Shown here: positions 5,731 through 37,451 of the stretch, piece by piece | Numbering within the stretch: position 1 is the stretch's first letter | Layout: each line of letters starts with the position of its first letter | Source of the DNA: Aureibaculum luteum | Lineage (GTDB): Bacteria > Bacteroidota > Bacteroidia > Flavobacteriales > Flavobacteriaceae | DNA: 64,000 nucleotides | NCBI RefSeq assembly: GCF_003449015.1 | Contig: NZ_QRGD01000004.1 | Coordinates: 124,001-188,000 of the forward strand | Direction: 5' to 3' | Notes under the pieces: model-generated | Told to the model about the DNA's origin: nothing | Seen by the model: only the letters and a program-made list of their open reading frames with translations | The model's database searches: none | Translations under genes and position numbers: made by a program

Positions 5731-5756
5731 TTTTTATGATTTGTAAATCATAAAAA
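5731..5756. repeat. Perfect 12-bp inverted repeat over the unit A promoter
   Basis: TTTTTATGATTT at 5731-5742 and its exact complement at 5745-5756 flank a 2-bp centre. It overlaps the proposed -7 box of unit A (5749-5758) and lies 14 bp before the start codon of the GH141-like gene. It could be a repressor operator or an mRNA hairpin in the short leader; no regulator can be named. Confidence 0.6.
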
Positions 5757-5812
5757 TAAAACTATTCAACTTCTTCAGGTATAAAATATGATTCATTTCA
5801 TATAAACTATCA
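5749..5812 (-). promoter_or_regulatory. PUL promoter P1 (unit A) with 21-bp direct-repeat operator
   Basis: Read on the minus strand: proximal element TGAATCATATTTTATA (5795-5780), 21 bp, then a -7 box TATTTTTATG (5758-5749), which fits TAnnTTTG except for the last base. A second element TGATAGTTTATA (5812-5801) lies exactly 21 bp upstream of the first. The same 64-bp layout occurs at 17810-17873 and 37216-37279. It drives the GH141-like gene, whose start is 32 bp beyond the -7 box. The -7 match is the weakest of the four copies. Confidence 0.55.
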
Positions 5813-5842
5813 TCATATTTTATCATTATCATAATAAATAAT

Positions 5843-5863
5843 AATTGACAATTGACAATTGAT
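5843..5863. repeat. Three tandem 7-bp repeats (AATTGAC, AATTGAC, AATTGAT)
   Basis: Short head-to-tail repeats at 5843, 5850 and 5857 between units A and B. They lie upstream of P1 and downstream of the GH172 stop. Function unknown; they are too short and too few to be a CRISPR array. Confidence 0.6.
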
Positions 5864-5871
5864 AGCCGTCT

Positions 5872-5898
5872 AAAAAAATATTTGAAAACTATTTTTTT
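5872..5898 (-). terminator. Weak AT-only hairpin at the end of unit B
   Basis: AAAAAAATA (5872-5880) pairs with TATTTTTTT (5890-5898) across a 9-base loop, just after the GH172 stop codon. The minus-strand transcript would end in a U-run. The stem contains only A-T pairs, so termination efficiency is doubtful. Confidence 0.35.
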
Positions 5899-5903
5899 AC
5901 ACA

Positions 5904-7535
5904 TTAATTATTAGGAAAACCTTCTGGCAAAGGAGGTATATTTAAAGCTTCCTTTTCATCTGGAACTCTATTTGATGTAGTTTGCTTATCGCCATACCAA
6001 TATACACCAACACCATAACCCATTTCACAATCAGTCCAACTCCAAATTTCCATATCTAACTTTAAAGAACTACTAAATGGCATTACATCTAGGGCTCTAG
6101 TTCTTGTTTCAGTACTATAACCAGATGTGTTTTTTCCTTTGGTTTGTTTTCGATTTAATTTATTATATACATTACTTTTGGTTTGAGCATGAAATGGATG
6201 CTCGTAGAAATCGGTACTTTTCCCGCCCCATGAATACCCATAATAATCTTCTGTACCGGTTCCAAATATTGATGGAAAATATTCATTATCTACCCATATT
6301 TTTTCATCACCTTCACCCCACCATTTTTTAACAGGGTTCATTACTGTTAACGCATCTCCTACATAAACCCCTCTCCCTTTAAGTGTAATATAATTCCAAT
6401 CGGAAAATGGTCTTGTAGCTACTGGATATTGTCCTTTCCATGCCGCATTAAAGTACATACTTTGGTCATCCCATTTCCAGGCACCTATAGTCGCTTTTAA
6501 GTCAATATTTATAGATTTTTTTCCTAAATTAACTACAGAAATTTTACCTATTTTTTGATATGGCATAACCCATCTACAAGTCATAGTACCATCTTCGCTA
6601 ACCGTTCTGTACCAGCCTTGAAACGGATTTAACCCAATACCAGAACCGAAAAAATCACCAATAGGAGTCCATACTGTTTGCTCTCCATCAAATTCTATTT
6701 TTAAAATTACAGAACGCATAACCTCTGGGTTTTTATATTCTGTTAATTTTAAACTAATTTCTCTAATTGCTGCATTTCCTTCTGGTAATTCAATTGATTT
6801 CTCTTTTGTTGAACGCAATTTAGTTTTCAATGAAATTTCATTTCCTTTTACTGCATTTTCAGGTGCTAATAACAATTCTCCAACTTTTTTTGTAAACGGT
6901 ATGGCACTGTTAAAATCTTCTTTTGTAAACGTTTTTATAGGCGTGTAATCGTCATATGCTCTATAGGTAAATTGGTAGAAAAAAGGCATTTCACTTGTTG
7001 TTATTTTACAACTCTTAGCATAAGGAATTGGAAAAAAAGAAACGGCTGATCTTAAGGATTGATGTGCTAATGGAAAAGGAATTTCTCCAGTACCATCTAA
7101 CAGCCCTAACATATTCCCTTCTAAAACAGGTTCTGTATTTCCATCCAAATAAATTTTGATTTGAATATCTGTATTGGGTTTGTCTGGACTTAAAAAAGGC
7201 ATCCAGGTTCGTACAACAGCTCCGGGTCCAACATGGTTCATCAAAACCCATTCTTTTTGTCCATTTTTTTCTTCGGTTCTAACAAAGTTATGATCCGTTT
7301 CTTTGTTGTTATAATCTTTATTGATAAACCAACCAACCGTATCTTGAGGTGTTTTTGAAGCTCTATTATAGCTACTTTCTTGTTTTAGCCTAAAATTAGT
7401 TTGAGGAAATCGGGCTATGGCGTCTCTATCAATCATTTCATTTAATAAAGACTTAATAGAAATTACATCGTCATCTTGTGCAACTAATGTTGCTGTAAAA
7501 GCTAAAAAAACAAGCAAGTGAATAGTTTTAATCAT
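5904..7535 (-). CDS. GH172 (former DUF2961) glycosidase
   Basis: A 543-residue secreted protein with the DUF2961 fold, now classified as GH172. Characterised members act on alpha-fructofuranosides or alpha-D-arabinofuranosides. A signal peptide ends near TLVAQ (residue 20). The first jelly-roll shows the family mark GPGAVVRTWMPF, and the second half has FGTGTEDYYGYSWGG, the most conserved DUF2961 motif with its catalytic-region glutamate, followed by GVGVYWY. Length is usual for the single-domain type. It is the last gene of unit B, 96 bp after the esterase gene. The presence of GH172 suggests a furanosidic side chain in the substrate, but the exact sugar is inferred only from the family. Confidence 0.88.
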   Translation of the reverse strand: MIKTIHLLVFLAFTATLVAQDDDVISIKSLLNEMIDRDAIARFPQTNFRLKQESSYNRASKTPQDTVGWFINKDYNNKETDHNFVRTEEKNGQKEWVLMNHVGPGAVVRTWMPFLSPDKPNTDIQIKIYLDGNTEPVLEGNMLGLLDGTGEIPFPLAHQSLRSAVSFFPIPYAKSCKITTSEMPFFYQFTYRAYDDYTPIKTFTKEDFNSAIPFTKKVGELLLAPENAVKGNEISLKTKLRSTKEKSIELPEGNAAIREISLKLTEYKNPEVMRSVILKIEFDGEQTVWTPIGDFFGSGIGLNPFQGWYRTVSEDGTMTCRWVMPYQKIGKISVVNLGKKSINIDLKATIGAWKWDDQSMYFNAAWKGQYPVATRPFSDWNYITLKGRGVYVGDALTVMNPVKKWWGEGDEKIWVDNEYFPSIFGTGTEDYYGYSWGGKSTDFYEHPFHAQTKSNVYNKLNRKQTKGKNTSGYSTETRTRALDVMPFSSSLKLDMEIWSWTDCEMGYGVGVYWYGDKQTTSNRVPDEKEALNIPPLPEGFPNN

Positions 7536-7631
7536 TTTTAATTTATTTCGTTTCAGATATAATTTATTACGCTCTAATTGAACAAGTGAACTAGTTAATT
7601 TAAAAGAATGAATTAATAAAATTTAACCAAC

Positions 7632-8591
7632 CTATTTTAAATGAGAAAGTATAAATTTAGTAGCATAATCATTCAGTTCCTCTATTGATGGCGAAATATT
7701 TGACCCGCTAAAACTATGTCCCGCATTTTTAATGGTTAATAGTTCAACGTCCGCATTTTTCTCTTTTGCCACTTCTATCATGTAAGTCGAGTTTATAATG
7801 GGTAGCGTTGTATCTTTGTCTCCGTGTAATAATAAAATTGGTGGACTATCTTCTTCTAAAAGCTCAGTAGGACTTAACAATTTTGCCAATTCTGGTTTCT
7901 CTTCTATGGGATCACCTAAAAGTCGCACAAAAAGTTTTTTATCTTCAAAAATAGAATTTGGTCGAATATCAGGATTTATACAAGATGTAAAGGGAAAATA
8001 GGAAGCTACACATTTAAAATCAAGCGTGTATTTTGATAATTTAGGATCACCTTTAAAATCAGATTCTTTACTTAAAGCTGTCACTAGACTTAAATGTCCT
8101 CCTGCAGATCCTCCCCAAATACCATACTTGTTTTTATCTAATTTATATTTCTCTGCATTTTTTAAGAGAAAACGAGCTGCCTCTTTTGAATCTACAACAG
8201 CATCATAAGCAGTAATAGTTCCTCGTGCTTTTCGGTATTCTATGGTAGCACAAACAACCCCATTATCAAGAAGGTTTCTTAAAGTACCCAAAAAGGATTT
8301 TCTTAACACTTTGTATTTGCTTCCACCAGCCCATCCACCTCCGTGAACATGTAACATCCATGGATTTTCTTTTTTTACCTTATTAGGTTCTGGATAGAAA
8401 ATAATCATATCTAATTCAGTACCATCTACCGTTTTATAAACGACAGTTTCTTTATAAGTAAATGTGTCAAGAATTTCTTGTTCTTCTGGCGTTTGTCCAA
8501 TTACAATTGATTGGTAACCGAAAAACAGTACCAATAGAAGTAATCCTCTTTTTATTCTTAAAAGAATCTTGAAGTAATTATTTAATTTCAT
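7632..8591 (-). CDS. Secreted alpha/beta-hydrolase esterase (BD-FAE/lipase type)
   Basis: A 319-residue alpha/beta hydrolase with a leader (hydrophobic segment about 15-32). It carries the oxyanion-hole motif HVHGGGWAGG, the nucleophile elbow G-G-S-A-G-G (serine in WGGSAGGHLS), the aspartate in LLLHGDKDTTLP, and the catalytic histidine in NAGHSFSG. This is the arrangement of polysaccharide-associated acetyl or feruloyl esterases of the BD-FAE type. In a PUL such enzymes remove ester groups that block glycosidases. It lies in unit B between the long lyase and GH172. A similar esterase is encoded in unit D at 39460-40332. The acyl group removed is unknown. Confidence 0.85.
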   Translation of the reverse strand: MKLNNYFKILLRIKRGLLLLVLFFGYQSIVIGQTPEEQEILDTFTYKETVVYKTVDGTELDMIIFYPEPNKVKKENPWMLHVHGGGWAGGSKYKVLRKSFLGTLRNLLDNGVVCATIEYRKARGTITAYDAVVDSKEAARFLLKNAEKYKLDKNKYGIWGGSAGGHLSLVTALSKESDFKGDPKLSKYTLDFKCVASYFPFTSCINPDIRPNSIFEDKKLFVRLLGDPIEEKPELAKLLSPTELLEEDSPPILLLHGDKDTTLPIINSTYMIEVAKEKNADVELLTIKNAGHSFSGSNISPSIEELNDYATKFILSHLK

Positions 8592-8685
8592 TTATTTAAC
8601 ATTTTATATATTAGAATATTATAAAATTATTTTAGTTTATTTAAACATGTTAAATTCTCAAATAATTGCATCTAATAATAGGTTA

Positions 8686-11418
8686 TTATATATGTATTGT
8701 TCGCAAATCGCCAGCTTCAAATTTCTTTTCTACCCCCTTGTGAGTAATAGTAACAGCGACTTCATTGTGCAGTATAAGTTGACCATTTTGTTGTTTTAAA
8801 ACCACATTACCTATTTCGCTTGCTGAAATTGAAAAGTCTTTTGTGATTACTTCTTTTCCGTTACCCATAAAAATTATCAAATCTCCATTTTTTTCATTGG
8901 CTAATAATGTATAGGTAGCATCAGTTGTCATCTCTTTATAATTTACCTTTTGATGATTTGCTGAAGAAAAAACAATATCTTCACGACCCGATTTATGTTT
9001 TATATGAAGACCAACAAACTCAGTATTCCCATTTTCATCTTCAAAACCAGAAATATTTGTAATGCTCTTTCCTTCACTAGAAGTAAAAGGTTCATAAACT
9101 GAAACAAAAGGGTGTTCCCAAGCGGCTCCGTGCTGTCTTGCTGCAAAAGTTAAATAAGGTGCATTTTCAACCTCATACGGAAAGCCATGGTTTCCTTTAA
9201 AAGCTTTATTTGGAGGCGATTTTAATGAAAATATTTCACGTCCTTCAGTTCCTTTCATCCACAAGTTCATAAAAACATCGTCCTCCCCTTCTGGCATATC
9301 TATTTTCCATTCTGCTTGATAATCTTTATTCAGCTTGATAGATTTTTTATCCCACATATAATCCAAGGCATATAAAAACCCTCCAGCAAAAGCCATTTCT
9401 TCTGTTGGCATAAGGTTTAAAGGTTGCCCAGATTCATCTAAAACCGCCATACTTTGACCGAGGTTATGGTAATAATAATCATGAAATTTATCTCCTTTGC
9501 GTTGTTTTTTAGATCGAAAAATATCAATATAATAGCCTGTTGTTTCGCCCGTTTTTATTGTGCTTACTAGTCGTGATTGATCACTTCTAGTTTCAGGTTC
9601 TAAAAAATAAACATCTGAATAGGTAATATCTGTGTAGTAACCGTTTTTCTTTTCAGATTTAGGATATTCACCCATTAAATCAAATGCGTGATTACTAAAC
9701 ATTTCGGTATATGAAGACACCCCATCTACCATCACGGTATTGTGTGCTGGAAACTGCGAATAAAACTCCAAGTATATGGGTTGTAGATAACTCGCCCCCT
9801 TTCCTGGATCAGCTCCTTGTACAAACCCTTTGCCATACAATTCCATATTAATTCCATTGGCATGCATGTGGTTACCAAGCGATCCATTTAAGGAGACCAT
9901 CATACCATCTTTTCCAGATCCTATCCGTTGAACATGCCAACTTACGTTAGGAGCATAAAAAGTTTGAGTAATGTACTCTTTTAAATCTCCTGCACCATAT
10001 TTAGGATTGAGCTCCAAAGGCTTAGAAGCAAAAAAAGAAGAGATATTTGCTTTTGGTTTTCTTCCTTTTTTACCGGAACTCTTAGAATCTTCAGCAAATA
10101 AGTGATACATACTCGTAAATTCTTTTTCAACGGCTTTATCATTATTCTTCTGAGCTACACGTATTAAGTTTGTAATTGCTTCTGTACCTAAACCAGCATA
10201 ATTAGAATCGCCAAAAGCTACTGTTTGCCCATTCGGAAATAAATACTGTGGTAACATTTTTACAGCTTTTACCATTGTTGGCATATATGGTAAAATATTA
10301 TGATCAAAAGTAGTATCAAAATCCTCAATAAAGGCTGTTAAATCTTTAGTTACACCTTGAGAATACCCAGGGCATTCTGCCCAAACACCATTGTTTTCAT
10401 CATAACCAAAATCCATAAATTTAGTTAACGACCACTGTCTTGCGGAAGTAACATTCAGAATATAATCGATATAATATTCACGCCCTTTTTTATCTTCATA
10501 ATATTTATTATCCTTTAATACCATTGCGGCTTTTAAAATTGTCTTAGCCTGATGTAGATTCCAGTTATTTTGTGGTACTCCATTTTTGATTATTTGATCT
10601 GTCCATCTCTTAATGGTTTTATCATACATAGGTATATATTCAGCGTGATTCGCTTCAATATATGGATGTAAAAAATCATAAAGTTCGGCAACATCTATGA
10701 GTACACTTTCATGAATTACTTGAAAATTAGTAAAGCCAACAAGTGTCTGTATATGCCCATTAAGTAAATCAATTGGTTCACTTCTATAGGACATTCCTTC
10801 TAAATAGGTATGGATAATATCATTTGCAAATTTAGCATAACGTTCATCATTTTCAAGCCAATAAATAAATGCGGCATCGCGTGCTAACTCAATTATTTGC
10901 TCATTAATGGAATAAATTACTCGTCCAGTTTTAGAGGGTTCAGCCCATTCAAAAGGATTCCCTTCTTTACTTCTATTTGGTAAATACAAACCACGTGGAT
11001 CATCCATATAAGGTAAAATATCCTCTAATTTTGGCGTTCCATAAGGTGTTGTATAGTCTCTAGAACCAACAAAACGTACTGTAGGCACAGGTGCTTCACC
11101 ATCGGCATGTGAGTAATTAATACCATCTATATAAATATTAGTTGCTTTGGTTTTCCAATACATTTGTAGTCGAGAAACCATCCATTCTGGGTCTTTAATA
11201 TGACGTTCTACATGTTTATCTATACGTTCGTGAATACCTTGCAATACGGCTTTAGCCCACGGCTCATTTTTAATCGTTTTCTCTAAGCCTTTCTTTTCTG
11301 ATTGCGTAATATATAAACGTGGATATCCTTGTTCTAGATTTTCAGGGAGAGGAATTTGTGCATATGCCCATCTTCCAAGAAAAGATAATACAATGATTAT
11401 TATTAACGTTTTTTTCAT
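8686..11418 (-). CDS. Long heparinase II/III-like polysaccharide lyase (paralogue 1)
   Basis: A 910-residue secreted lyase-type protein: signal peptide to about residue 20, (alpha/alpha)-toroid to about residue 420, then the heparinase II/III beta-sandwich domain. Putative catalytic residues are visible: Asn284-Asn285-Trp with His289 (NNWNLHQ), Tyr352 (ECPGY), and the sandwich-edge motif GNHMHANGINMELYG with His517 and His519. Lyases of this fold cleave next to uronic acid by beta-elimination, neutralised by Asn or Glu with His and Tyr as base and acid. Two close paralogues are at 22895-25705 and 27707-30523. They share the stretch SRLQMYWK and a PRGLYL-like segment. It sits in unit B. I cannot give the PL family number or the exact uronate. 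Confidence 0.8.
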   Translation of the reverse strand: MKKTLIIIIVLSFLGRWAYAQIPLPENLEQGYPRLYITQSEKKGLEKTIKNEPWAKAVLQGIHERIDKHVERHIKDPEWMVSRLQMYWKTKATNIYIDGINYSHADGEAPVPTVRFVGSRDYTTPYGTPKLEDILPYMDDPRGLYLPNRSKEGNPFEWAEPSKTGRVIYSINEQIIELARDAAFIYWLENDERYAKFANDIIHTYLEGMSYRSEPIDLLNGHIQTLVGFTNFQVIHESVLIDVAELYDFLHPYIEANHAEYIPMYDKTIKRWTDQIIKNGVPQNNWNLHQAKTILKAAMVLKDNKYYEDKKGREYYIDYILNVTSARQWSLTKFMDFGYDENNGVWAECPGYSQGVTKDLTAFIEDFDTTFDHNILPYMPTMVKAVKMLPQYLFPNGQTVAFGDSNYAGLGTEAITNLIRVAQKNNDKAVEKEFTSMYHLFAEDSKSSGKKGRKPKANISSFFASKPLELNPKYGAGDLKEYITQTFYAPNVSWHVQRIGSGKDGMMVSLNGSLGNHMHANGINMELYGKGFVQGADPGKGASYLQPIYLEFYSQFPAHNTVMVDGVSSYTEMFSNHAFDLMGEYPKSEKKNGYYTDITYSDVYFLEPETRSDQSRLVSTIKTGETTGYYIDIFRSKKQRKGDKFHDYYYHNLGQSMAVLDESGQPLNLMPTEEMAFAGGFLYALDYMWDKKSIKLNKDYQAEWKIDMPEGEDDVFMNLWMKGTEGREIFSLKSPPNKAFKGNHGFPYEVENAPYLTFAARQHGAAWEHPFVSVYEPFTSSEGKSITNISGFEDENGNTEFVGLHIKHKSGREDIVFSSANHQKVNYKEMTTDATYTLLANEKNGDLIIFMGNGKEVITKDFSISASEIGNVVLKQQNGQLILHNEVAVTITHKGVEKKFEAGDLRTIHI

Positions 11419-11471
11419 CTTAATTTTATTTGAAATTTATTTCCGAGCTCTATTTTGTTTCATAATCCTAT

Positions 11472-12155
11472 TTATTCACCACCTTTCTTCATTTCAATTA
11501 TCACTACCCCATTTGCACCTCTTGAACCATAAATTGCCGCTGAACCATCTTTCAATAAACTAATTCTTTTTACATTAAACGGTCTCAACCCTTCAAGTGT
11601 TTGTATGTTAACAGGAACATCATCTACAATTATTAAAGCAGCATTTGAACCATTAATTGAACTAGGTCCTCTTATAATTATTTCTTTATTTATAATTTGC
11701 ACACCTACTAGTTTTCTTACTATTAAAGCATAAATGTCGGCATATTGTGCAAAATCATCATCATCATCATCACTAATACTTGCTATTGAAAAAAGTTTTT
11801 TATCATCTTTTACATATCCGTATGCCACGGAAATTTTGTCCTTTTTAAGACTCGTTTTTAGTTTAAGATTGACATGCAACATTTTATTTTCTTCTTTAAT
11901 CTTTACTTTCTGTGTTGAAAACCCGTTGGCACTTATCTTAAGTCTATCTGTAGGTAAACAATTCAACTCAAAATGTCCAATACTATCAGTAAGAAATATT
12001 AGTTTTGAGCTTGAAACAATAATCTTAGCGTTAATTAGTGGAATACTATCAAATGTTGTTACAAATCCTTTAATTCTTTTTTCCTGACCTTCAGACTTAA
12101 ATGATATAAAGGTTAAAATAAGAATTATTGCGAAAGTAACATATGAATTTTTCAT
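11472..12155 (-). CDS. Plug-only TonB-type protein (CarboxypepD_reg-like plus SusC plug, no barrel)
   Basis: A 227-residue secreted protein. A signal peptide (to about residue 24) is followed by a carboxypeptidase-regulatory-like beta-sandwich (GFVTTFDSIPLINAKIIVSS to about 105), an Asp run at SDDDDDDF, and a TonB plug domain (about 140-227). It ends in IYGSRGANGVVIIEMKKGG, which is the SusC/RagA signature at the end of the plug. The stop comes straight after this signature, so no beta-barrel is present, and the next 53 bp lead into the lyase gene. It is therefore either a remnant of a SusC or a short stand-alone plug protein. It is intact as an ORF and co-linear in unit B between the DUF1080 and lyase genes. 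Confidence 0.75.
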   Translation of the reverse strand: MKNSYVTFAIILILTFISFKSEGQEKRIKGFVTTFDSIPLINAKIIVSSSKLIFLTDSIGHFELNCLPTDRLKISANGFSTQKVKIKEENKMLHVNLKLKTSLKKDKISVAYGYVKDDKKLFSIASISDDDDDDFAQYADIYALIVRKLVGVQIINKEIIIRGPSSINGSNAALIIVDDVPVNIQTLEGLRPFNVKRISLLKDGSAAIYGSRGANGVVIIEMKKGGE

Positions 12156-12226
12156 GATTAATATGGCTTCATTATTATGAATTAAAATTTAATAAAATTA
12201 AAAAAATCAAGTTCTAATCAAATCTA

Positions 12227-13051
12227 TTATTCAATAAATTCTTTCATTGGAATAATCTTTTCAAATTCCTTAATTTTAATATTTCTATAATAAATTTCAG
12301 CCGTTTCTGATTGAAATCCAATAATGCCTTCACTTACCGAAAGATTTGTCGCCATATTTACAATCTCACCATTCAATTTGTGAATGGTATATGCATCACC
12401 CATAACAATAATCTCACATTGATTCCATTTATCATTTAGGGCATTATATGTTGGATTAGCAATACCATAAAGTTCATTTTTCTTTTCTCCCATATCTTTT
12501 CCTCCAACTTTTGGTAATTGAAATGTTTTACCATCTTCAGTAGCCGTCCAATGTAATGTTGTATTCGCCGCCCAAAAATCACCAGTATGATTTCTATTTG
12601 TAATATGGTTATACCTTATTTGATATTCTATCCCTTTCGGCCAAATTTTGTCATCAAACACATGATAATAACAACCTGCATCATATTGCCATTTATCAAA
12701 GTTATTAGTGATTTTTGTCCCCCATTTATATTCAAACCTCAGTATATATTTACTATATTTTTTATTTGTATAAAAAAGACCATGTGTTTCATTTTCTCCT
12801 GTATTCAGATTTAAACTATCAGGCATATCTTTAAAAACATGCACCATTCCATCTTCAATTGCGTATACTTTTTTGGCCATTTCTTCATCTCCATTTTTTA
12901 ATTTAAGATGCCAACCATCCCAATTTTTACCATTGAATATTTCCACAAAACCTTCATCTGATAAGGGATCTTTTTGAGTCTTCGTACATGCAATTGTTAA
13001 CAGAAAAATTAATGATACAAGTACTGAATAATTTGATAGTTTAGATTTCAT
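12227..13051 (-). CDS. DUF1080 / 3-keto-disaccharide hydrolase domain lipoprotein
   Basis: A 274-residue protein with a lipobox LTIAC (Cys22) and one DUF1080 jelly-roll. The family mark FVEIFNGKNWDGWHLK is at the start of the domain, with GCYYHVFDD, GDFWAANTTLHW and the terminal strand IYYRNIKIKEF. Some DUF1080 proteins cleave 3-keto-glycosides in oxidative saccharide breakdown, and the FAD oxidoreductase two genes upstream could supply such a keto-sugar. That link is an inference; many DUF1080 proteins have no known activity. It lies 20 bp after the permuted SGNH gene in unit B and 71 bp before the plug-only gene. Confidence 0.85.
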   Translation of the reverse strand: MKSKLSNYSVLVSLIFLLTIACTKTQKDPLSDEGFVEIFNGKNWDGWHLKLKNGDEEMAKKVYAIEDGMVHVFKDMPDSLNLNTGENETHGLFYTNKKYSKYILRFEYKWGTKITNNFDKWQYDAGCYYHVFDDKIWPKGIEYQIRYNHITNRNHTGDFWAANTTLHWTATEDGKTFQLPKVGGKDMGEKKNELYGIANPTYNALNDKWNQCEIIVMGDAYTIHKLNGEIVNMATNLSVSEGIIGFQSETAEIYYRNIKIKEFEKIIPMKEFIE

Positions 13052-30523: not shown

Positions 30524-30528
30524 AATAA

Positions 30529-32004
30529 TTATTCATTTCGAGTCCAAATATGACTTCCCTCCAATAATTCTTGATATTGAGTTTTAAACTCTTTTTTTAA
30601 TTTGTTAAAAATTTCAGGCTCCTTTAAAGATAAATCTTCAGATTCATTAATATCTTTCTTTAAATTAAATAGGACAAAATCAGTTAATTTAGCACTTTTA
30701 ACGAAGTCTTCATTACCATCATATAAATTGTGTATATGTGGTAATTCGGTATGATCTACTTCTAAACTTCCCATTATTTTCCATTCACCACTTCGCATGG
30801 CCACTCTACGTTTATTAATAGCATCATAAAATGCCCAAATTAAGGGTTTACTTCGCTCAAAAACGCCATTATCTAATAGGGACTTAAATGATTGTCCATC
30901 TAATGTTCTATCTGGTAATTTGGCTCCTGAAAGCTCAGCAAAAGTTGGTAAAAAGTCTAAAGCAGAAACAACAGCATCTGAAGTTCCTGAAAAATTATTT
31001 TTTCCAATCCAACTTACAATTCCGGGTACTCTAAAACCAGCTTCATTGGTCCATAATTTCATTCCTTTTAATGCTCCCGGAGATCCGTAAGAATGTTTTG
31101 CTTTACTATACCTCATTAAGGTTTCAGGTCCATTATCTGATGAAAACACAATTAATGTATTCTCACTATTATTTTTCTTTAAATAAGATATTAACCTTCC
31201 AACAGCTAAATCTACATTTTCTACATTGGCAAAATATTCTGCCTCTTCCCTTTTGTCTGTAAATTGTAGATACTTTTGGACTAAATCTTCGGGTGACGCA
31301 ATAGGTTCATGAGGTTCATGAAAAGCAACTTCTAGAAAAAACGGAGCATCACTTTCTTTCTTTTCTAACCATTGAATGGCTTCATCCACTATTATTTGAC
31401 TGCTATAACCTTTTATTTCTCCTACTTTTTCACCGTTACGTATAAAATTTTTAGGGTTTTGATGACTAGGTGCCGCATTATTATGAGTTGCAAACCAATG
31501 ATCAAATCCAAAATCATTAGGTTGTGGTTGTTTATCCGAATTAAATCTAGAGCTACAATGCCATTTACCAACCAAACACGTGGAATATCCTACTGATTTT
31601 AATAACGACGGAATGGCTATTTCATCAGCTTGTAAATGGACTAAATCTCTATTATCTTCGCTTTTTTTAAGCCCCGGAATAAAATCATAAACACCTGCTC
31701 TGTTAGGACTCCGCCCTGTAAGTAAACCAACTCGAGATGGTGAACAAACCGGTGCTGCAGCATAAAAGTTAGTTAGTTTAATACCTGATGCAGCTAATGC
31801 ATCTAAATTTGGCGTTTGTATAATAGGATGACCAAATGAGGATAAATCGCCATAGCCCAAATCATCGCATAATAAAACTACAATATTGGGTTGTTTTTCA
31901 ATTACTTTTTCATTTATAACCTGATCATTCTTATCAAGTACTTTTGATTTACATGAAACACTAACCAAAATAGTTACCACAAATAGGCATCTAAAAATAT
32001 TCAT
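30529..32004 (-). CDS. S1-family sulfatase lipoprotein
   Basis: A 491-residue sulfatase. Lipobox VSVSC (Cys18) predicts a lipoprotein. The metal site IVVLLCDDLGYGDLSSFG, the formylglycine signature C87-S-P-S-R (AAPVCSPSRVGLLTGR), GKWHCSSRF, HEPHEP and FSSDNGPET are all in place, so it should be active after maturation. The segment ELPHIHNLYDGNE near the C-terminus may shape the substrate pocket. It overlaps the upstream esterase gene by 4 bp (ATGA), indicating translational coupling, and is followed after 5 bp by a long lyase. The sulfate position removed cannot be inferred without subfamily assignment. Confidence 0.95.
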   Translation of the reverse strand: MNIFRCLFVVTILVSVSCKSKVLDKNDQVINEKVIEKQPNIVVLLCDDLGYGDLSSFGHPIIQTPNLDALAASGIKLTNFYAAAPVCSPSRVGLLTGRSPNRAGVYDFIPGLKKSEDNRDLVHLQADEIAIPSLLKSVGYSTCLVGKWHCSSRFNSDKQPQPNDFGFDHWFATHNNAAPSHQNPKNFIRNGEKVGEIKGYSSQIIVDEAIQWLEKKESDAPFFLEVAFHEPHEPIASPEDLVQKYLQFTDKREEAEYFANVENVDLAVGRLISYLKKNNSENTLIVFSSDNGPETLMRYSKAKHSYGSPGALKGMKLWTNEAGFRVPGIVSWIGKNNFSGTSDAVVSALDFLPTFAELSGAKLPDRTLDGQSFKSLLDNGVFERSKPLIWAFYDAINKRRVAMRSGEWKIMGSLEVDHTELPHIHNLYDGNEDFVKSAKLTDFVLFNLKKDINESEDLSLKEPEIFNKLKKEFKTQYQELLEGSHIWTRNE

Positions 32005-32831
32005 TTTAATTTAGTATTAGAACTTTCAAAGAAGTCATTAAAAAACAGCATCTGATATTTAATAGAATTTTTCCAATACGTATTGGTATGTCCTCCAGGG
32101 CGTTCAATATAATCGTGTGGAATATTTCGTTCTAGCAGTTTCTTATGTAATCTCTTATTCGCATCATAAAAGAAATCATCAACACCACAATCAAAAAGAA
32201 ACTTTAAATTTTTACCATCTAATAAATGCACCAAATTAATTACGGTATTATTCTCCCAAGTTTCTTTATTTTCAGCATAAGACCCCAAACGTTTAGAAAT
32301 ATCCCAACTTCGTGGAAAAGGTCTAATATCTACACCTCCACTCATACTAGCTGCTACTCCAAAGATATCTGTATGTTTAAAAGCTAGATAAAGAGCACCA
32401 TGACCGCCCATACTTAATCCGGCAATAGCTCTATTTTTATATGAAGCTTTTGTGTTATATGATTTGTCAATTTGTGTAACGAGTTCTTTAGATACATAGG
32501 TCTCATATTGCATTGTACTATCAATAGGGCTATCAAAATACCAGCTCGTTTTATTCCCGTCAGGACAAACAATTATCACATTATATAAATCAGCATACGT
32601 TTTAATTTTAGGAGCTTTTTTTAACCAATCTTTATAATCGCCACCAGCACCGTGTAACAAATAAATTACGGAATAGGCTTGCCCTTTTTTAGTATAGGAG
32701 TCGGGCGTTATCACCACATTTTTTATGTCTTTATTCATTGTCTTGCTATGTACAATAAGTGTATCCGTTTTAGACGCAAATACAGAGATAGCAATAAAAC
32801 AAAATAGTATAAAGCTTATTCGGTTTTTCAT
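32001..32831 (-). CDS. Esterase D / CE1-like alpha/beta hydrolase
   Basis: A 276-residue secreted esterase of the esterase D / S-formylglutathione hydrolase and CE1 group. Signal peptide to about residue 20. YSVIYLLHGAGGDYKDW carries the oxyanion hole, IAGLSMGGHGALYLAFKH the nucleophile serine (G-L-S-M-G), FDCGVDDFFYDANK the aspartate and RPGGHTNTYW the histidine. Enzymes of this type in PULs remove acetyl or aromatic acyl groups. It is co-transcribed with the sulfatase (4-bp overlap), which suggests joint removal of ester and sulfate groups. The 113-bp gap upstream separates it from the MFS transporter gene. Confidence 0.87.
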   Translation of the reverse strand: MKNRISFILFCFIAISVFASKTDTLIVHSKTMNKDIKNVVITPDSYTKKGQAYSVIYLLHGAGGDYKDWLKKAPKIKTYADLYNVIIVCPDGNKTSWYFDSPIDSTMQYETYVSKELVTQIDKSYNTKASYKNRAIAGLSMGGHGALYLAFKHTDIFGVAASMSGGVDIRPFPRSWDISKRLGSYAENKETWENNTVINLVHLLDGKNLKFLFDCGVDDFFYDANKRLHKKLLERNIPHDYIERPGGHTNTYWKNSIKYQMLFFNDFFESSNTKLK

Positions 32832-32886
32832 ATTTTTATATTTTTTTCATATCCGTAATTAGTAATAATATAGCATAACATCATGC

Positions 32887-32906
32887 TGTCCCCACACTTC
32901 GGGACA
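32887..32906. other. GC-richer hairpin between the transporter and esterase genes
   Basis: TGTCCC (32887-32892) pairs with GGGACA (32901-32906) around an 8-base loop. It stands out from its AT-rich surroundings and lies in the 113-bp gap 3' of the MFS gene, inside unit C. No U-run follows, so it could be an RNA-processing or stability element rather than a terminator. Confidence 0.4.
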
Positions 32907-32944
32907 AGGTGACGAATTGATTATGTCACATTACAGATAATCAG

Positions 32945-34270
32945 TTATTTTTTCAGCATAACATCTTCCAATTCTTCCAGCGTTTTACCTTTCGTCTCGG
33001 GCATCATAAAGGCTACAAACAATAATTGTAATACCATCATTAGTGCAAAAACTAAAAACACAACTCCCGGACCAATCATAGGATGACTAAATAAAAATGG
33101 TATTAAAGACGGTATAATAGCAGCTAAAACCCAATGCGTTGAGCTTCCAAAAGCTTGACCAGAAGCTCTTAAATGATTTGGGAAAATTTCAGAAATAAAT
33201 ACCCATATTACTGCACCTTGACCAACGGCATGTGCTGCAATAAATAAAAACAAAAATATTGGCACAGCCATACCCGTCCATCCCAAGAAAAATGCTGCTG
33301 AAACGAGACTTAAAGATATAATATATCCAATAGAACCAATGTACATCAATGTTTTTCTTCCTAATTTATCAATTAAAAACACACCCAATAATGTAAAAAC
33401 AAGGTTCGTAACGCCAATTCCGATACTACTTAACAACGCCGTACTTTCACCAAGACCAGCCTCTTCAAAAATACGAGGTGCGTAGTATAAAAATGCGTTG
33501 ATCCCTGACAACTGATTAAAAAATGCGATTAGGAAAGCTAACATTAAGGGGAATCTATATTTTTTTATAAATATATTCTCCGATTTATCACTTTTTTCTG
33601 AATGAGCTTTGAACTCTATTATCTGTGCTTCAACATCAGCTTCTGGTTCAATTATTTTTAAGACTTCTCTAGCTTCTTCTTCTCTAGATTGTGATAATAA
33701 CCATCTTGGACTTTTAGGTAGTTTTAAGGCAAATAAGATATATAATACTGCTGGAATAGCTTCTACTCCAAGCATCCATCTCCAAGCATTTTCACCTAAA
33801 TCACTTAACAAGAAATTAGACAAATAGGCCATCATTATACCAAAAACAATATTAAATTGGTACATAGCGACCAAACGTCCTCTATCTTTAGCAGGAGCAA
33901 TCTCAGAAATATAAGCAGGGGCAGCAATTGTAGATGCTCCAACTCCTATACCTCCAATGAAACGAGCAAATGCAAACACGTAAGGATCATTAGAAAATGC
34001 TGATCCTATAGCAGAAATAGCAAACAAAACCCCAATTACTATTAATGTGTTTTTACGTCCATATTTATTTGTAGGTATGCCACCAAAAATGGCTCCAATA
34101 ACAGTACCCCAAAGTGCGGCTCCCATTACAACCCAACCATGAAAAGAATCAGATGATTCCCATAAAAGTTGTAATTTTTTATCGGCTCCTGAAATTACGA
34201 CTACATCAAACCCAAATAAAAATCCAGCAAGGGCAGCTGTAATAGACCATAATAGTATTTTTTTGTTCAT
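32945..34270 (-). CDS. MFS sugar porter (sugar:H+ symporter type)
   Basis: A 441-residue inner-membrane transporter of the sugar porter family with 12 expected membrane segments. Marks: WGTVIGAIFGGIPTNKYGRK (loop 2-3), RFIGGIGVGASTIAAP, DRGRLVAMYQ, LPKSPRWLLSQ before the central loop, FFNQLSGINAFLYYAPRIF in segment 7, IDKLGRKTL, and the terminal PETKGKTLEELE. It would import a monosaccharide (for example fucose, galactose or a released side-chain sugar) after periplasmic breakdown. The central cytoplasmic loop is about 50 residues. It is third in unit C, after GH29 and the beta-propeller enzyme. The sugar is not determined by visible motifs. Confidence 0.93.
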   Translation of the reverse strand: MNKKILLWSITAALAGFLFGFDVVVISGADKKLQLLWESSDSFHGWVVMGAALWGTVIGAIFGGIPTNKYGRKNTLIVIGVLFAISAIGSAFSNDPYVFAFARFIGGIGVGASTIAAPAYISEIAPAKDRGRLVAMYQFNIVFGIMMAYLSNFLLSDLGENAWRWMLGVEAIPAVLYILFALKLPKSPRWLLSQSREEEAREVLKIIEPEADVEAQIIEFKAHSEKSDKSENIFIKKYRFPLMLAFLIAFFNQLSGINAFLYYAPRIFEEAGLGESTALLSSIGIGVTNLVFTLLGVFLIDKLGRKTLMYIGSIGYIISLSLVSAAFFLGWTGMAVPIFLFLFIAAHAVGQGAVIWVFISEIFPNHLRASGQAFGSSTHWVLAAIIPSLIPFLFSHPMIGPGVVFLVFALMMVLQLLFVAFMMPETKGKTLEELEDVMLKK

Positions 34271-34303
34271 CTTAAATATAAGTTTTGTAAGTATTAATTT
34301 AAA

Positions 34304-35395
34304 TTATTTTGTGTTTAAAGGAATAACCATATTCCATGTTTTAGTACCATTACCAAATCCACCTGGACCATTCATAGTTGCAAAAAAGATATGGGTTGGA
34401 ATTCCATTTTCAACAAAAACAAAAGGACGTTCCAATTGACCTTGTTTTATGTTTTTTCCATTATCCCATTTAATTAATTTTGTATACGCTTTTGCATTTT
34501 TATCAACAACCCAATTAATTCCATCTTTAGAATGAGCTAATAGTCCGTCACCTTTACCACCTGTTATTACCCCTCTTTGATCTTTGGCTACCATATGAAA
34601 CCCATTATCATCACTCCATAAATGTGGATCTTCAATTTCTCCAAACCGTTCCATTGAAAATAATGGTTCATCGTCAATTACAGTATATTCACCATCAAAA
34701 GACGATGCTGTAGCCACACCAATACTCATATCTCCATGTGTAATACCATCCTTCTTATAGCCCCTACCTTTAAATAGCAAAATAACAGATCCATCTTTTT
34801 TAATTAATGGTGAAGGGTTAGAAGTTAAAAAACTATAATATGAATTCGGTTTTACATCTAAAATAGGAGCATCTGAACGTTTCCAAGGTCCATAAGGACT
34901 TTTTGATGTTGCAATACCAATACGCTTACCCCATCTTGCTGCGATACACCATTTACTTGATAAAGTAAACGCGTTAATGTTGTCGGCAGTAACATCTTCA
35001 AAAGGATGTGTGGAGCCCATATAATATAAAATATAGGTGTCTTTATACTTTACAATTTTTGGATTGTGACATGATTTTCCATCCCAATATTGCGTTCCTC
35101 TATCACCTAATGCGACATCTATATATTTATAAGGTCCCTCTGGAGTATCAGAAACCGCATGAACAATTTCTGAAGCAATCATCCATCCTGGATGAAATGG
35201 TAAAGATTTTGGCCAACGTGATGCATACATATGATACTTATTGTCCTCTCCTTTTATTACAGAACTTCCCCACACCCAATAATCTTCCATTTCAAAACCA
35301 CCATTTACAGGTGCTTCCTTTAAATTATCAAAAATAAAGTTCTGTGCTGTGCATGAAGAAATAACTCCTATAAATAAAAGAAAAAAATATTTCAT
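34304..35395 (-). CDS. Five-bladed beta-propeller glycosidase lipoprotein (GH43/GH117-like)
   Basis: A 363-residue protein with a lipobox VISSC (Cys15). The repeated pattern of short strands with D/E-rich turns (WVWGSSVIKGEDNKYHMYASRW; CHNPKIVKYKDTYILYYMG; SNPSPLIKKDGSVILLFKG; EDPHLWSDDNGFHMVAKD; ERPFVFVENG) is that of the five-bladed propeller hydrolases. The acidic residues at blade starts (SSVI region, NPSPLI, IEDPHLW) are candidate catalytic or calcium ligands. Such proteins are annotated as GH43-like, GH117-like or plain 'glycoside hydrolase family protein'. It is second in unit C, 22 bp... from GH29, and 33 bp before the transporter gene. The family number is uncertain. Confidence 0.65.
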   Translation of the reverse strand: MKYFFLLFIGVISSCTAQNFIFDNLKEAPVNGGFEMEDYWVWGSSVIKGEDNKYHMYASRWPKSLPFHPGWMIASEIVHAVSDTPEGPYKYIDVALGDRGTQYWDGKSCHNPKIVKYKDTYILYYMGSTHPFEDVTADNINAFTLSSKWCIAARWGKRIGIATSKSPYGPWKRSDAPILDVKPNSYYSFLTSNPSPLIKKDGSVILLFKGRGYKKDGITHGDMSIGVATASSFDGEYTVIDDEPLFSMERFGEIEDPHLWSDDNGFHMVAKDQRGVITGGKGDGLLAHSKDGINWVVDKNAKAYTKLIKWDNGKNIKQGQLERPFVFVENGIPTHIFFATMNGPGGFGNGTKTWNMVIPLNTK

Positions 35396-35416
35396 AAATT
35401 AAATTAGCATTTAGAA

Positions 35417-37189
35417 TTAATTTTTAGATGGTTTAAGAGTTACTTCTTTTAAGTTAATGCCCTTCCATTTATTTGCAACAGGCATTAAAGAAACTTCATA
35501 TTTACCTGGTTTGGAAATACTGAAATTTTCAAATTCTATTTTTTTAAACCTTTTAGAATTACTACCACTTGCCGGGATTTTGATTACTTTAGTTTCTCCG
35601 TTAAGTAAAACCTCTATTTCATTATCCTCTTGACCTGAATACCCTGCAACTAATGCAAAATTGCCAGGTGTATCTATTTCAAAAGTCCAATAAACTCTTG
35701 CTGTTTCACTATCCCAACTACTAATACAATCTAATTTCTCATTATACTGAGCACCTGGCCCTTGTAAATTTTCGTATTGAGCTCTATAAGCTGGTAACCT
35801 AACAAGACCTGACTCATCTTGCCCTAAACTTTGTTGAGGCAACGCATTGGGAAGAGTATTCAATTTTAGAACAATTACCGATGCTATACTATCAGGAGCA
35901 TCTCCCGTTAACTTTACTTCAATACCATCTTCTAAAGATTGGGTTTTAAAAGTTCTTGATTTATCCGTTAATAAATAGCAGGCTTCAACTTCATTTCTAA
36001 GTCTAATTGGAAGTGTAACTCCATCTTTCCAGTCATACACATGTAAATATAACAACCCTTTATTATCAACAGTTTTCATTGTAATTCTACCCCATTTCGG
36101 CTCCTCTTTTGTTGGACTAGCTTGCGTGCCATAAATGGCTTCACTATTTTTATTCATCCATGATCCAATAGCCTTTAAACGTTCAACGGCTTCGGGTTTT
36201 AAGACACCATCACTGGTGGGACTTACATTTAGTAAATAGTTCCCCCCTTTGCTACTTTGATCAATCAAATTATGAATTAAGGTTGGTATTGATTTAAAGT
36301 TATTATCGTCACTTCGGTATCCCCAACTGCCACTGATAGGTTGACACAATTCCCAATATTTTGCTTCGGGCTGATATCTTGGTCCATTACGTTCAAATGT
36401 TTTGTGATCACCAGGATAATCGTCTCCTAAACGATCATTTGTAATAATATTAGGCTGTAAAGCTGTTGTGATATGATGTAAACTATCAACAACAGATTTT
36501 GTCATTTCTCTAGGTGTATCCCACCAAAAAATGGCAATTGGCCCATATTCAGTTAGTAATTGTTTCACTTCAGGTAGTGCTTTTTGATATACGTACGTAT
36601 CACTACTAACGCGTTCTAAAGTATTATCCCATGTATTACCCATACCGCCTGGATGATGCCAATCTTGAGCCTGAGAGTAATAAAAACCAAACTTAATTCC
36701 TTGCTTTTCACATTCTTCTGCCAATTCTTTCATTACATCTCGCTTAAAAGGAGTTGCATCAACCACGTTATATTTACTGCTTTTAGAATGAAACATTGAA
36801 AAACCGTCATGATGCTTTGCAGTAATAACCATATATTTCATACCTGCCTGTTTTGCTAGACTTACAAATTCTTTTGCGTCGAAATGTTCAGGGTTAAATT
36901 GGTCTGCAAACTTTTCATAATCAGCAATAGGTATTTTTCCCTTGTTCATTATCCATTCTGCACTATTCGTTTGAGCTTCTCCCTTATAAAATCCAGCAGG
37001 TACTGAATATATACCCCAATGAATAAACATACCAAATCTTGCATCTGACCACCACTCCATTCGATCTTCATCAGTGATTACTTTTTGGTAGTCTTTATTT
37101 TCTAATAGTGACGTATTCTTTTGCTTTCCCTCACATCTGATATTAAATATAAGCACGAGCATTAGCAATAAGATTCCAGTTTTTTTCAT
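35417..37189 (-). CDS. GH29 alpha-L-fucosidase with C-terminal carbohydrate-binding-like domain
   Basis: A 590-residue secreted fucosidase. Marks: RMEWWSDARFGMFIHWGIYS, KYMVITAKHHDGFSMFHS, TPFKRDVMKELAEEC, and the nucleophile motif IAIFWWDTPRE (Asp224), then SWGYRSDDNNF and GGNYLLNVSPTSDG. A first sandwich domain (about 350-460) is followed by a second jelly-roll (about 465-590, AYRAQYENLQGPG to VTLKPS) that resembles a CBM-like module. It is the first gene of unit C, 27 bp after the -7 box of P3. It differs from the GH29 at 19120-20487 by this extra domain and by the nucleophile context, so the two probably differ in linkage preference. Confidence 0.93.
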   Translation of the reverse strand: MKKTGILLLMLVLIFNIRCEGKQKNTSLLENKDYQKVITDEDRMEWWSDARFGMFIHWGIYSVPAGFYKGEAQTNSAEWIMNKGKIPIADYEKFADQFNPEHFDAKEFVSLAKQAGMKYMVITAKHHDGFSMFHSKSSKYNVVDATPFKRDVMKELAEECEKQGIKFGFYYSQAQDWHHPGGMGNTWDNTLERVSSDTYVYQKALPEVKQLLTEYGPIAIFWWDTPREMTKSVVDSLHHITTALQPNIITNDRLGDDYPGDHKTFERNGPRYQPEAKYWELCQPISGSWGYRSDDNNFKSIPTLIHNLIDQSSKGGNYLLNVSPTSDGVLKPEAVERLKAIGSWMNKNSEAIYGTQASPTKEEPKWGRITMKTVDNKGLLYLHVYDWKDGVTLPIRLRNEVEACYLLTDKSRTFKTQSLEDGIEVKLTGDAPDSIASVIVLKLNTLPNALPQQSLGQDESGLVRLPAYRAQYENLQGPGAQYNEKLDCISSWDSETARVYWTFEIDTPGNFALVAGYSGQEDNEIEVLLNGETKVIKIPASGSNSKRFKKIEFENFSISKPGKYEVSLMPVANKWKGINLKEVTLKPSKN

Positions 37190-37215
37190 GGAGTATTAAT
37201 TTGAAATATTGTTTA

Positions 37216-37279
37216 TACAATAATAAAAACAATAGGCTTTATCTAGTATAAATCATGAATCATACATTATAAAATATAG
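37216..37279 (-). promoter_or_regulatory. PUL promoter P3 (unit C) with 21-bp direct-repeat operator
   Basis: Read on the minus strand: distal element TGAACTATATTTTATA (37283-37268), proximal element TGATTCATGATTTATA (37262-37247), 21 bp, then -7 box TATTATTGTA (37225-37216). The two elements start 21 bp apart. The proximal element is identical in 14 of 16 bases to the one in the divergent promoter P4. Confidence 0.65.
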
Positions 37280-37368
37280 TTCATTTAAAGATATTATTTT
37301 ATAGTAGTTAATAAGAATAATTAAAAGTAATAAATTAAATCAGTTTTAGACTTCGTTCTAAATGGGTA

Positions 37369-37390
37369 TTAAATGGGTATTGAATTGATA
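37369..37390. repeat. Two tandem 11-bp repeats (TAAATGGGTAT)
   Basis: Exact head-to-tail copies at 37369-37379 and 37380-37390, 14 bp upstream of the P4 element. They occupy the place where the other three promoters have the distal element. They look like a second regulator site or an alternative activator site. Confidence 0.65.
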
Positions 37391-37404
37391 ATGCTGATTC
37401 ATAG

Positions 37405-37451
37405 TTTATATTTATTTTTATAAATATTTATTAATATTGTATAGATCTAAT
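37405..37451 (+). promoter_or_regulatory. PUL promoter P4 (unit D)
   Basis: Element TGATTCATAGTTTATA (37405-37420), 21 bp, then -7 box TAATATTGTA (37442-37451), then 25 bp to the GH97 start. The element and 21-bp spacing match P1-P3. A clear second copy 21 bp upstream is not visible. An alternative reading as a plain Bacteroidota promoter exists (TTG 37395-37397, 19 bp, TATATTTA 37417-37424). Confidence 0.6.

Follow-up and report, generated by a model that had tools for sequence, protein, structure and literature searches.

A 16-bp element in front of the four PUL transcription units (A to D) of the window, i.e., the whole analyzed stretch of 64,000 nucleotides of Aureibaculum luteum DNA, is very probably the operator of the hybrid two-component regulator (HTCS) encoded at 43444-47664, as predicted by sequence comparison. 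At promoters A, B, and C, two 16-bp half-sites form a direct repeat with a period of 21 bp that ends 21 bp before the -7 box (Table 1). The second copies that the earlier note had seen one period upstream in the three minus-strand cases are present at A (with a weak 5' half), B, and C, and the AraC-like geometry, with two turns between direct half-sites, finds support as well. The 16-mers, 21-bp spacers, and -7 boxes described for the four promoters are all in the sequence, except that the half-site of D lies at 37395-37410, 10 bp below the 37405-37420 given previously. The proposal of a single layout for all four units holds for A, B, and C, while D is built differently and has one intact half-site. 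The in-register distal half-site of promoter D scores -4.9 bits with the window matrix, which is no good copy; the first 9 bases of this degraded copy are like those of the distal copies in G397 and G018, and its TTTATA part is gone. The boxes of B, C, and D read TAnnATTG and that of A reads TATTTTTA, each with one mismatch to TAnnTTTG, the -7 box of Bacteroidota housekeeping sigma promoters and the type reported as general in the family (PMC9723704). Downstream of the promoter B box, the first gene of unit B has its probable start codon at 17783-17781. Across genera, the operator consensus is approximately TGARYNATAATTTATA-N5-TGAAYCATAATTTATA-N21-TAnnATTG.

Table 1. Transcription units, operator half-sites, -7 boxes, and regulator in the window
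Feature	Positions	Strand	Remarks
Unit A: GHL15, GH30-like, beta-helix/GH141-like genes	762-5717	-	Boundary predicted from orientation
Promoter A -7-like box TATTTTTATG	5749-5758	-	21 bp past half-site; weakest box in set, 3.6 bits
Promoter A proximal half-site TGAATCATATTTTATA	5780-5795	-	Matrix scan; kept in G002
Promoter A distal half-site ATGATGATAGTTTATA	5801-5816	-	Weak 5' half; matrix scan; kept in G002
Unit B: heparinase II/III-like, FAD oxidoreductase, GDSL, 3-keto-disaccharide hydrolase, plug-only SusC-like, heparinase-like paralogue, BD-FAE esterase, DUF2961 genes	5904-17783	-	Predicted boundary
Promoter B -7 box TAGTATTGTA	17810-17819	-	21 bp past half-site; box and spacing same in G002
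Promoter B proximal half-site TGAATGATGAGTTATA	17841-17856	-	G002 counterpart is TGAAACATAGGTTATA
Promoter B distal half-site TAAATCATAATTTATA	17862-17877	-	Identical in G002 despite differing flanks
Unit C: two GH29-like, GH97, GH141-like, two heparinase-like, sulfatase, MFS transporter genes and esterase genes	18025-37189	-	Predicted boundary
Promoter C -7 box TATTATTGTA	37216-37225	-	21 bp past half-site; sequence
Promoter C proximal half-site TGATTCATGATTTATA	37247-37262	-	Matrix scan
Promoter C distal half-site TGAACTATATTTTATA	37268-37283	-	Matrix scan
Promoter D degraded distal copy TGGGTATTGAATTGAT	37374-37389	+	-8.2 bits, foreign-only matrix
Promoter D proximal half-site TGATTCATAGTTTATA	37395-37410	+	Identical in G002
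Promoter D -7 box TAATATTGTA	37432-37441	+	21 bp past half-site; sequence
Unit D: GH97, esterase, two sulfatase genes	37477-43417	+	Predicted boundary
AraC-type DNA-binding region of HTCS	43447-43776	-	Query for co-occurrence test
HTCS	43444-47664	-	Pfam; likely start is Met of residue 8

The HTCS combines a Reg_prop propeller, Y_Y_Y, HisKA, HATPase, a receiver, and an AraC-type HTH_18 domain in one chain, with each domain match above the Pfam cutoff. Its translation contains SHIP (ETSHIPIILL), the first part of the receiver motif S/CHIP-DK. The assignment of the element to this HTCS, as the earlier note had proposed, finds strong support in its co-occurrence with the regulator, examined in 397 genomes of the family, 17 of the genus, and 80 named loci. 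A pattern of dimer, 21-bp spacer, and box is found in 23 of the 397 family genomes, and the HTCS DNA-binding region (E<=1e-30) is found in 20, all of them among these 23. Hence, the pattern is present in 20 of 20 genomes with the close domain versus 3 of 377 without it, the latter having one 3-mismatch match each (Fisher p of 7e-31, for genomes that are related and so not independent). The 20 domain-bearing genomes hold 69 of the 72 pattern matches; the reversed pattern gave 6 matches across the 397 genomes. Among the 17 genomes of the genus, the pattern occurs in G000 and G002 alone, in which the domain is complete and near-identical, and in G001, whose HTCS match stops before the DNA-binding domain, no pattern was found genome-wide. 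For the named loci, selection used only the protein and kept the best 80 of 582; all five loci with 54 to 73% identity contain dimers, and none of the 75 with at most 46% does. An HTH alignment was obtained for 94 of 106 loci. The sites of A, B, and D are kept in G002, and the operator is conserved across genera, which is the conservation in related PULs that the earlier note had proposed as a check.

It is improbable that the element belongs to another regulator travelling with the PUL, such as an AraC-type paralogue or an ECF sigma/anti-sigma pair. The genome does encode six other HTCSs, one of which (C30:63057-67121) is 57 kb from the window and 17 kb from two operators outside it (see below); no SusC is listed beside this neighboring HTCS. 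However, the DNA-binding domains of the six paralogues are just 33 to 39% identical, no dimer above 14.5 bits occurs in five other HTCS regions, two paralogue types have operators of other sequence, and co-occurrence with the HTCS domain is complete in the 20 genomes. Furthermore, the operator cluster of G349 is far from any HTH match: four of the five pattern matches are at 33 to 86 kb (the fifth is at 3.28 Mb), the nearest HTH match (E<=1e-8) other than the HTCS is at 0.478 Mb, and the sole close domain, that of the HTCS at 2.35 Mb, is 2.3 Mb away.

Chance likeness in AT-rich promoter DNA has a negligible probability as an explanation for the element, even though the GC content of the window is 31.6% and single half-sites occur elsewhere, e.g., at 25583 (+) within a gene. 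With leave-one-out matrices, each of the dimers A, B, and C takes 3rd place among 127,928 positions, with just the two training dimers ahead of it, and D comes 11th; when the matrix includes them all, A to C score 31.6 to 33.4 bits versus 18.8 for the next best. A matrix built from other genera only (foreign-only matrix) gives its five highest scores in 150 kb (27.9 to 35.0 bits) to A, B, C, and two sites outside the window, above the shuffles (95% level, 15.7 bits; maximum, 19.0 bits). When as many as 3 mismatches are allowed, the dimer pattern matches nothing but A, B, and C in the entire 5.1-Mb genome, and the reversed control has no match. The genome-wide search with the fixed 21-bp spacer suggested by the earlier note returned few matches and no flood of unrelated ones: half-site, spacer, and box with up to 3 mismatches occur in 6 places, four of which are A to D and the sixth of which (C22:441745) has 3 mismatches, versus 1 in the reversed control. 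Dimer scores above those of shuffles, reversed-pattern and reversed-matrix controls near zero, and conservation across genera all stand against chance, which the shuffle and reversed controls exclude for A, B, and C. Promoter D rests on one half-site and its box, which are conserved in G002.

Comparison across loci shows a period of 21 and a fixed register to the -7 box. The five named loci with dimers contain 11 half-site pairs at a pitch of 21 and two at most at any other spacing from 11 to 60, and the 75 other named loci contain no pair at 21. TANNWTTG lies 21 bp past 46 of 69 foreign dimers and once each at 12, 42, and 46; 43 of the 69 match the genome-survey pattern, which itself requires the box. 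For dimers outside the survey pattern, TANNWTTG is at 21 in 8 and elsewhere in 2, and the best box by matrix is at 21 in 14 of 24, the matrix having been trained on all 67 dimers (69 minus two antisense duplicates), these 24 included. Because some of the foreign 20-kb regions were picked since the survey pattern matched there, these counts lean to 21 and to the box; the five named loci (L122 to L126) were chosen by protein only, and 10 of their 11 dimers are followed by TANNNTTG at 21 (one overlapping row dropped). All but one of the 67 dimers lie outside open reading frames (ORFs), though ORFs make up 87% of the regions, and the next ATG is within 150 bp for 52 of 60 dimers (omitting the 7 of 67 without a following ORF in the region). 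A lone half-site with a box at 21 was found twice in 41 foreign loci. Half-site promoters as a class of their own were rejected, as these are the only two other cases and each has a recognizable weak distal copy. The rigid register of the operator to the -7 box is possibly new.

The fixed distance might also fit a promoter element, i.e., an extended -33 region read by a special sigma factor, with no operator involved. We regard this explanation as very unlikely, as the 16-mers form a tandem repeat of period 21, occur specifically in genomes that carry this HTCS domain, and are limited to one cluster in the genome at the thresholds used, and the box is of the general TAnnTTTG family type (PMC9723704). 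For the operator of the HTCS, we propose that the two AraC-type domains of an HTCS dimer would contact the same DNA face, each occupying one half-site, at a distance of two turns (21 bp). Of these domains, the proximal one would end just upstream of the expected sigma region 4 (near -34 when the -7 box is taken as -12 to -5) and may recruit RNA polymerase to the -7 box in a fixed register. Phosphorylation would release the DNA-binding domain, and the HTCS would probably act by activation, not repression. Physical binding of the HTCS to the sites and the transcription start sites are likewise predictions from the DNA. The previous suggestion that the HTCS replaces a normal -33 contact is conjectural. 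Across 72 promoters, some of them likewise taken from regions picked by the survey pattern, the spacer has no conserved element at the -33 position, no TTTG is found there, and its first 13 positions carry at most 0.14 bit. Since the part of PMC7366714 covered reports that no -33 motif could be identified in Flavobacterium johnsoniae, there is perhaps nothing to replace.

The regulon appears to be larger than the window, so that the earlier view of four PUL units is correct for the units and understates the regulon. Two more operators exist 39 kb upstream of the window, before a susCD pair (C30:84848-89890) and a GH88 gene; the only SusC-like gene inside the window is plug-only, and an HTCS-linked PUL is thereby recognizable in a loose sense. 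The weaker of the two outside sites scores 20.5 bits with the window-trained matrix, above the 95% level of shuffles (17.9) and below the highest of 100 (21.3), and 29.4 bits with the foreign matrix; it is carried by its box and the latter score. A site at C30:116350, before a sulfatase gene, is at the noise edge under both matrices, and no operator, hence no autoregulation site, was found upstream of the HTCS gene itself in the foreign-matrix scan. The predicted regulon thus comprises the window PUL together with the susCD pair and the GH88 gene, crosses the visible PUL limits, and recovers the susCD pair absent from the window. Because GH29-, GH95-, GH141-, and GH97-like genes occur with sulfatase genes, the target glycan is perhaps a sulfated, fucose-containing polysaccharide.

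Expectation maximization (EM) over orthologues recovered, de novo, a fixed box register for two further HTCS types, whose half-sites are unrelated. EM was used because self-similarity and by-eye inspection of other HTCS loci were too weak, the C22 HTCS locus giving one good case (TGCAACAAATGTATTA/TGCATGATTTGTATTA). For the two types, 30 of 41 and 30 of 58 matches were used; 24 of 30 tails per set gave a full-length site over 0.5, and the null consisted of three shuffles per set at periods 20 to 22. A runner-up motif of the C12 type with a period of 18 in the first run was rejected, being susC coding sequence, and EM was rerun with coding tails cut and a relaxed box pattern that was written after the first-run sequences had been seen. 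In the C12 type, the 16-mer starts 26 bp before the box, not 37, and where it truly sits in the 22-bp repeat is ambiguous; the claim is therefore a fixed distance, not the same distance. We lean slightly toward the view that Flavobacteriaceae HTCS activators share a promoter grammar, in which a direct repeat of 21 to 22 bp with a register to the -7 box fixed per type would occupy the stretch that holds the -33 box in other Bacteroidota promoters, so that the HTCS would supply the upstream contact. The fixed register in three HTCS types is a rule usable for regulon prediction, and if the grammar is general, any HTCS regulon, unlinked operons included, would be readable from sequence alone.

Flavobacteriaceae are major polysaccharide degraders whose PUL regulators seldom have assigned operators, and our literature search found none assigned for them; one HTCS now gains a predicted operator, together with HTH-domain residues that are candidates for specificity. 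Escherichia coli AraC binds two direct half-sites about 21 bp apart at araI1-I2, beside the core promoter. It resembles the HTCS in half-site layout and, as proposed, in class II-like activation, and differs in being a one-component sugar sensor at a sigma70 promoter. In HTCS DNA-binding studies, fragments of the regulators cause a shift of PUL promoter DNA that carries predicted sites (PMC11253607 and PMC5061871), and Fig. S3 of PMC5061871 reportedly marks predicted HTCS sites along with -7 boxes; the portions covered of both contain no spacing analysis. The SHIP motif found here corresponds to the receiver S/CHIP motif that PMC11253607 links to inhibition of the DNA-binding domain. Direct-repeat HTCS operators are of a known kind, to which this HTCS adds a new case: Ravcheev et al. 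(PMC3878776) predicted them in Bacteroides in 2013, with a mean distance of 21 bp, and described 16-bp sites with a 5-bp spacer for mannan HTCSs, with dimers proposed to sit on a single face of the DNA. This format, a direct repeat before PUL genes with half-sites spaced by about 21 bp, is shared by A, B, C, and both outside sites, D has half of it, and the sections of PMC3878776 covered do not mention a register to the -7 box. In contrast to the Bacteroides operators, those described here belong to another lineage, have another half-site (TGAAYCATAATTTATA), and have a link to their HTCS that was tested over 397 plus 17 genomes.

The four 16-bp half-sites that an earlier note had described ahead of transcription units A to D of the PUL, each 21 bp from a -7 box, are all present in the sequence, and the places given for them were right except for that of D (true place in the table). 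The second copies reported at the three minus-strand promoters are likewise real: A, B, and C carry dimers, i.e., two direct half-sites with a period of 21 bp (16+5+16). Leave-one-out matrices, scanned over 127,928 positions, rank each of A, B, and C immediately behind the two dimers used for training, and a dimer pattern (up to three mismatches) matches only A, B, and C in the whole 5.10-Mb genome (reversed pattern, 0). A genome-wide search for half-site, 21 bp, and box, as the note had suggested, returned six matches, including A to D (reversed control, one); the match at C30:84744, on the contig of the window, is the proximal half of another dimer. The sole unexplained match outside that contig lies on contig C22 and has three mismatches.

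Features of the PUL and its surroundings (plain numbers, window coordinates; C30:n, coordinates on the contig of the window, which covers C30:124001-188000; limits of units A to D inferred from orientation)
Feature	Coordinates	Strand	Remarks
Unit A	5717-762	-	
Unit B	17783-5904	-	
Unit C	37189-18025	-	
Unit D	37477-43417	+	
HTCS gene	47664-43444		convergent with unit D, placed after the PUL; propeller sensor, kinase, receiver, AraC-type HTH
Half-site of promoter D	37395-37410		
Plus-strand 16-mer in operator C	37256-37271	+	TGAATCATACATTATA; faces D; 13.5 bits
Inverted repeat	5727-5760		TTTATTTTTATGATTTGTAAATCATAAAAATAAA; near perfect, 34 bp
SusC/RagA-type gene	11472-12155	-	227 aa; CarbopepD_reg and plug domain, without barrel
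Comparable SusC-like frame	C1:321900		224 aa
Heparinase II/III-like gene	8686-11418	-	without Pfam match; DNA 64-68% over stretches to 936-aa and 938-aa paralogues
Heparinase II/III-like gene	15480-17783	-	
Heparinase II/III-like gene	22895-25705	-	
Heparinase II/III-like gene	27707-30523	-	
Outside dimer	C30:84723	+	24.4 bits; box TAATATTGTG
Outside dimer	C30:84352	-	20.5 bits; box TAAAATTGTA
Half-site, 21 bp, and box match	C22:441745-441791	-	

The spacing was examined in loci of other genomes. Five protein-selected loci hold 11 half-site pairs at 21 bp and at most two at any other spacing in the range of 11 to 60, and no pair at 21 occurs in 75 other HTCS loci of named relatives. Thirty-six 20-kb regions from other genera, partly chosen by the dimer-plus-box pattern, gave 40 pairs at 21 and at most one at any other spacing (reversed matrix, one pair). 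TANNWTTG begins 21 bp past 46 of 69 dimers and has single occurrences at 12, 42, and 46 (43 of the 69 dimers match the search pattern of dimer, 21 bp, and box); among dimers not matching that pattern, it stands at 21 in 8 and elsewhere in 2, and a box matrix places the best box at 21 in 14/24. After removal of one overlapping row, 10 of the 11 dimers in the protein-selected loci have TANNNTTG at 21. ORFs cover 87% of the regions, while 66/67 dimers lie outside them. Across 72 promoters, none of the first 13 positions on the operator side of the spacer exceeds 0.14 bit; thus, there is no -33 box at that place. Taking the box to span -12 to -5, the range reported for Flavobacterium psychrophilum (PMC9723704), would place the half-sites at -70 to -55 and -49 to -34.

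The operator travels with the HTCS (hybrid two-component system regulator). Dimer, 21 bp, and TANNATTG (up to three mismatches) occur in 23 of 397 family genomes. The 110-aa HTH region has matches at E<=1e-30 in 20 of the 397; these genomes span 18 genera, and every one of them also has the pattern. The other three pattern-bearing genomes (G081, G110, and G128) have one three-mismatch match each, and the reversed pattern gave one match in each of six genomes. Fisher's test for co-occurrence gives p = 7e-31 for genomes that are related, hence not independent events. Among the best 80 of 582 named loci, picked by protein similarity alone, dimers scoring 17.9 bits or more are present in all five loci with 54-73% HTCS identity (two Maribacter, F. 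fluviatile, F. seoulense, and F. ajazii) and in none of the 75 with at most 46%; Maribacter and Flavobacterium are the nearest named relatives as judged by the HTCS protein. In genome G349, the HTCS lies at 2.35 Mb, four of the five pattern matches cluster at 33-86 kb, the fifth is at 3.28 Mb, and the other HTH match (E<=1e-8) nearest to the four-operator cluster is located at 0.478 Mb. These positions speak for specificity in trans, not linkage alone. Residues uncommon in 69 other HTH domains, e.g., G29, N44, K69, A81, and T86 (each 25/25 in the orthologous domains), are candidate specificity determinants.

The window (GC content, 31.6%) encodes GH29-, GH97-, GH30-, GH141-like, and heparinase II/III-like proteins, sulfatases, and esterases in its PUL. 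No SusD was found among the window proteins searched, and their only SusC-like frame is plug-only (227 aa), with no alignment in the otherwise matching PUL of congener G002. Two further dimers were found with a matrix trained on the seven window half-sites only, without a box term, and scanned over C30:58001-188000. In 100 shuffles, the best score averaged 14.9 bits and reached 21.3 at most, with its 95% level at 17.9. Both dimers have a -7 box exactly 21 bp away and stand back to back, with a susC-susD pair on one side and a GH88 gene on the other; back-to-back pairs 177-456 bp apart occur in nine other genomes (G017, G027, G144, G222, G227, G242, G244, G362, and G384). These putative operators add the transporter missing from the window PUL, giving a predicted regulon of ~85 kb. 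A further, marginal candidate at C30:116350, ahead of a sulfatase gene and identical in G002, scores 16.2 bits with the window-trained matrix (shuffle 95% level, 17.9) and 16.6 with a foreign-trained one (95% level, 15.7; maximum, 19.0).

Conservation in a related PUL, proposed as a check, was found: G002 has all four promoters, with 81-93% PUL identity across long aligned blocks. Promoter B is the most telling case: although G002 lacks the first gene of unit B and its flanks and spacer have diverged in sequence, it keeps the two half-sites with their 5-bp gap as well as the 21-bp spacing to the TAGTATTG box. The inverted repeat that overlaps promoter A's weak -7 box is also kept. Among 17 genus genomes, operators occur only in A. 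luteum and G002, and no other genome of the 17 has a complete, near-identical HTCS DNA-binding domain. In G001, alignment ends within the HTCS gene ahead of that domain (only from window position 43859 upward), the remaining PUL is unaligned in the 54 kb fetched, and no operator was found genome-wide. In this sister species, the matching place (G001:C1 around 2858381, L020-L022) thus has a truncated HTCS gene and no PUL, an arrangement that resembles a scar left when a PUL was lost.

Promoter D has a half-site of 17.6 bits, a box of 9.8 bits, and a degraded distal copy (-8.2 bits); in G002, half-site and box are unchanged and the distal copy is somewhat better (-3.0 bits). Elsewhere, few half-sites stand alone with a box at 21: two in 41 foreign loci and none in the 75 negative loci. 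We would expect weaker binding at D, or reliance on operator C, ~110 bp off. Operator C also holds a plus-strand 16-mer because TGAWTCA reads the same on both strands; it has no box at 21.

Two other HTCS kinds of the same genome, labeled C12 and C22, whose HTH regions have matches in 29 and 48 of the 397 genomes, respectively, were analyzed by EM, which picked period and motif without a box term from DNA downstream of 30 HTCS genes per type (30/41 and 30/58 matches). For C22, period 21 is the clear winner (285 versus at most 151; three shuffles, 55-66), with half-site TGCnnCAnATnTnnTA; for C12, period 22 wins (250 versus at most 204; three shuffles, 61-65), with half-site TGnATTTTT...CC and TGGATTTTT repeats downstream of the HTCS gene (L202-L231). 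A relaxed -7 box, defined after the first EM sequences had been seen, lies at offset 21 in 13/24 C22 sites and at offset 10 in 22/24 C12 sites, with at most two at any other offset; the strict box gives 6 at 21 and 1 at 22 for C22 and 14 at 10 and 1 at 21 for C12. Thus, the types have unrelated half-sites and a pitch of 21-22, and each has a fixed distance of its own. That of C12 is 11 bp (one helical turn) below the other two in the EM's register, which is ambiguous.

In the proposed mechanism, the propeller sensor would bind an oligosaccharide, leading to phosphorylation of the receiver, which would set the AraC-type domain free. In HTCSs, this domain is described as restrained via an S/CHIP-DK motif (PMC11253607), and the translated HTCS of the window carries SHIP. 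Both domains of an HTCS dimer would occupy the direct repeat, the proximal one resting against polymerase at a fixed register and so activating transcription; we infer activation, not repression, from the family and from the operator's place ahead of the box. The fixed operator-box distance is possibly a new rule, since no statement of it turned up in the open-access papers searched, including passages of PMC3878776 and PMC5061871. The operator format has precedents among HTCSs: a 2013 prediction for 16 Bacteroides HTCSs gave direct-repeat operators with a mean of 21 bp (PMC3878776), predicted promoters have been gel shifted with HTCS fragments (PMC11253607, PMC5061871), and the 16+5 sites of the Bacteroides mannan-type HTCS (PMC3878776) have the same format as the 16+5+16 operators of the window.
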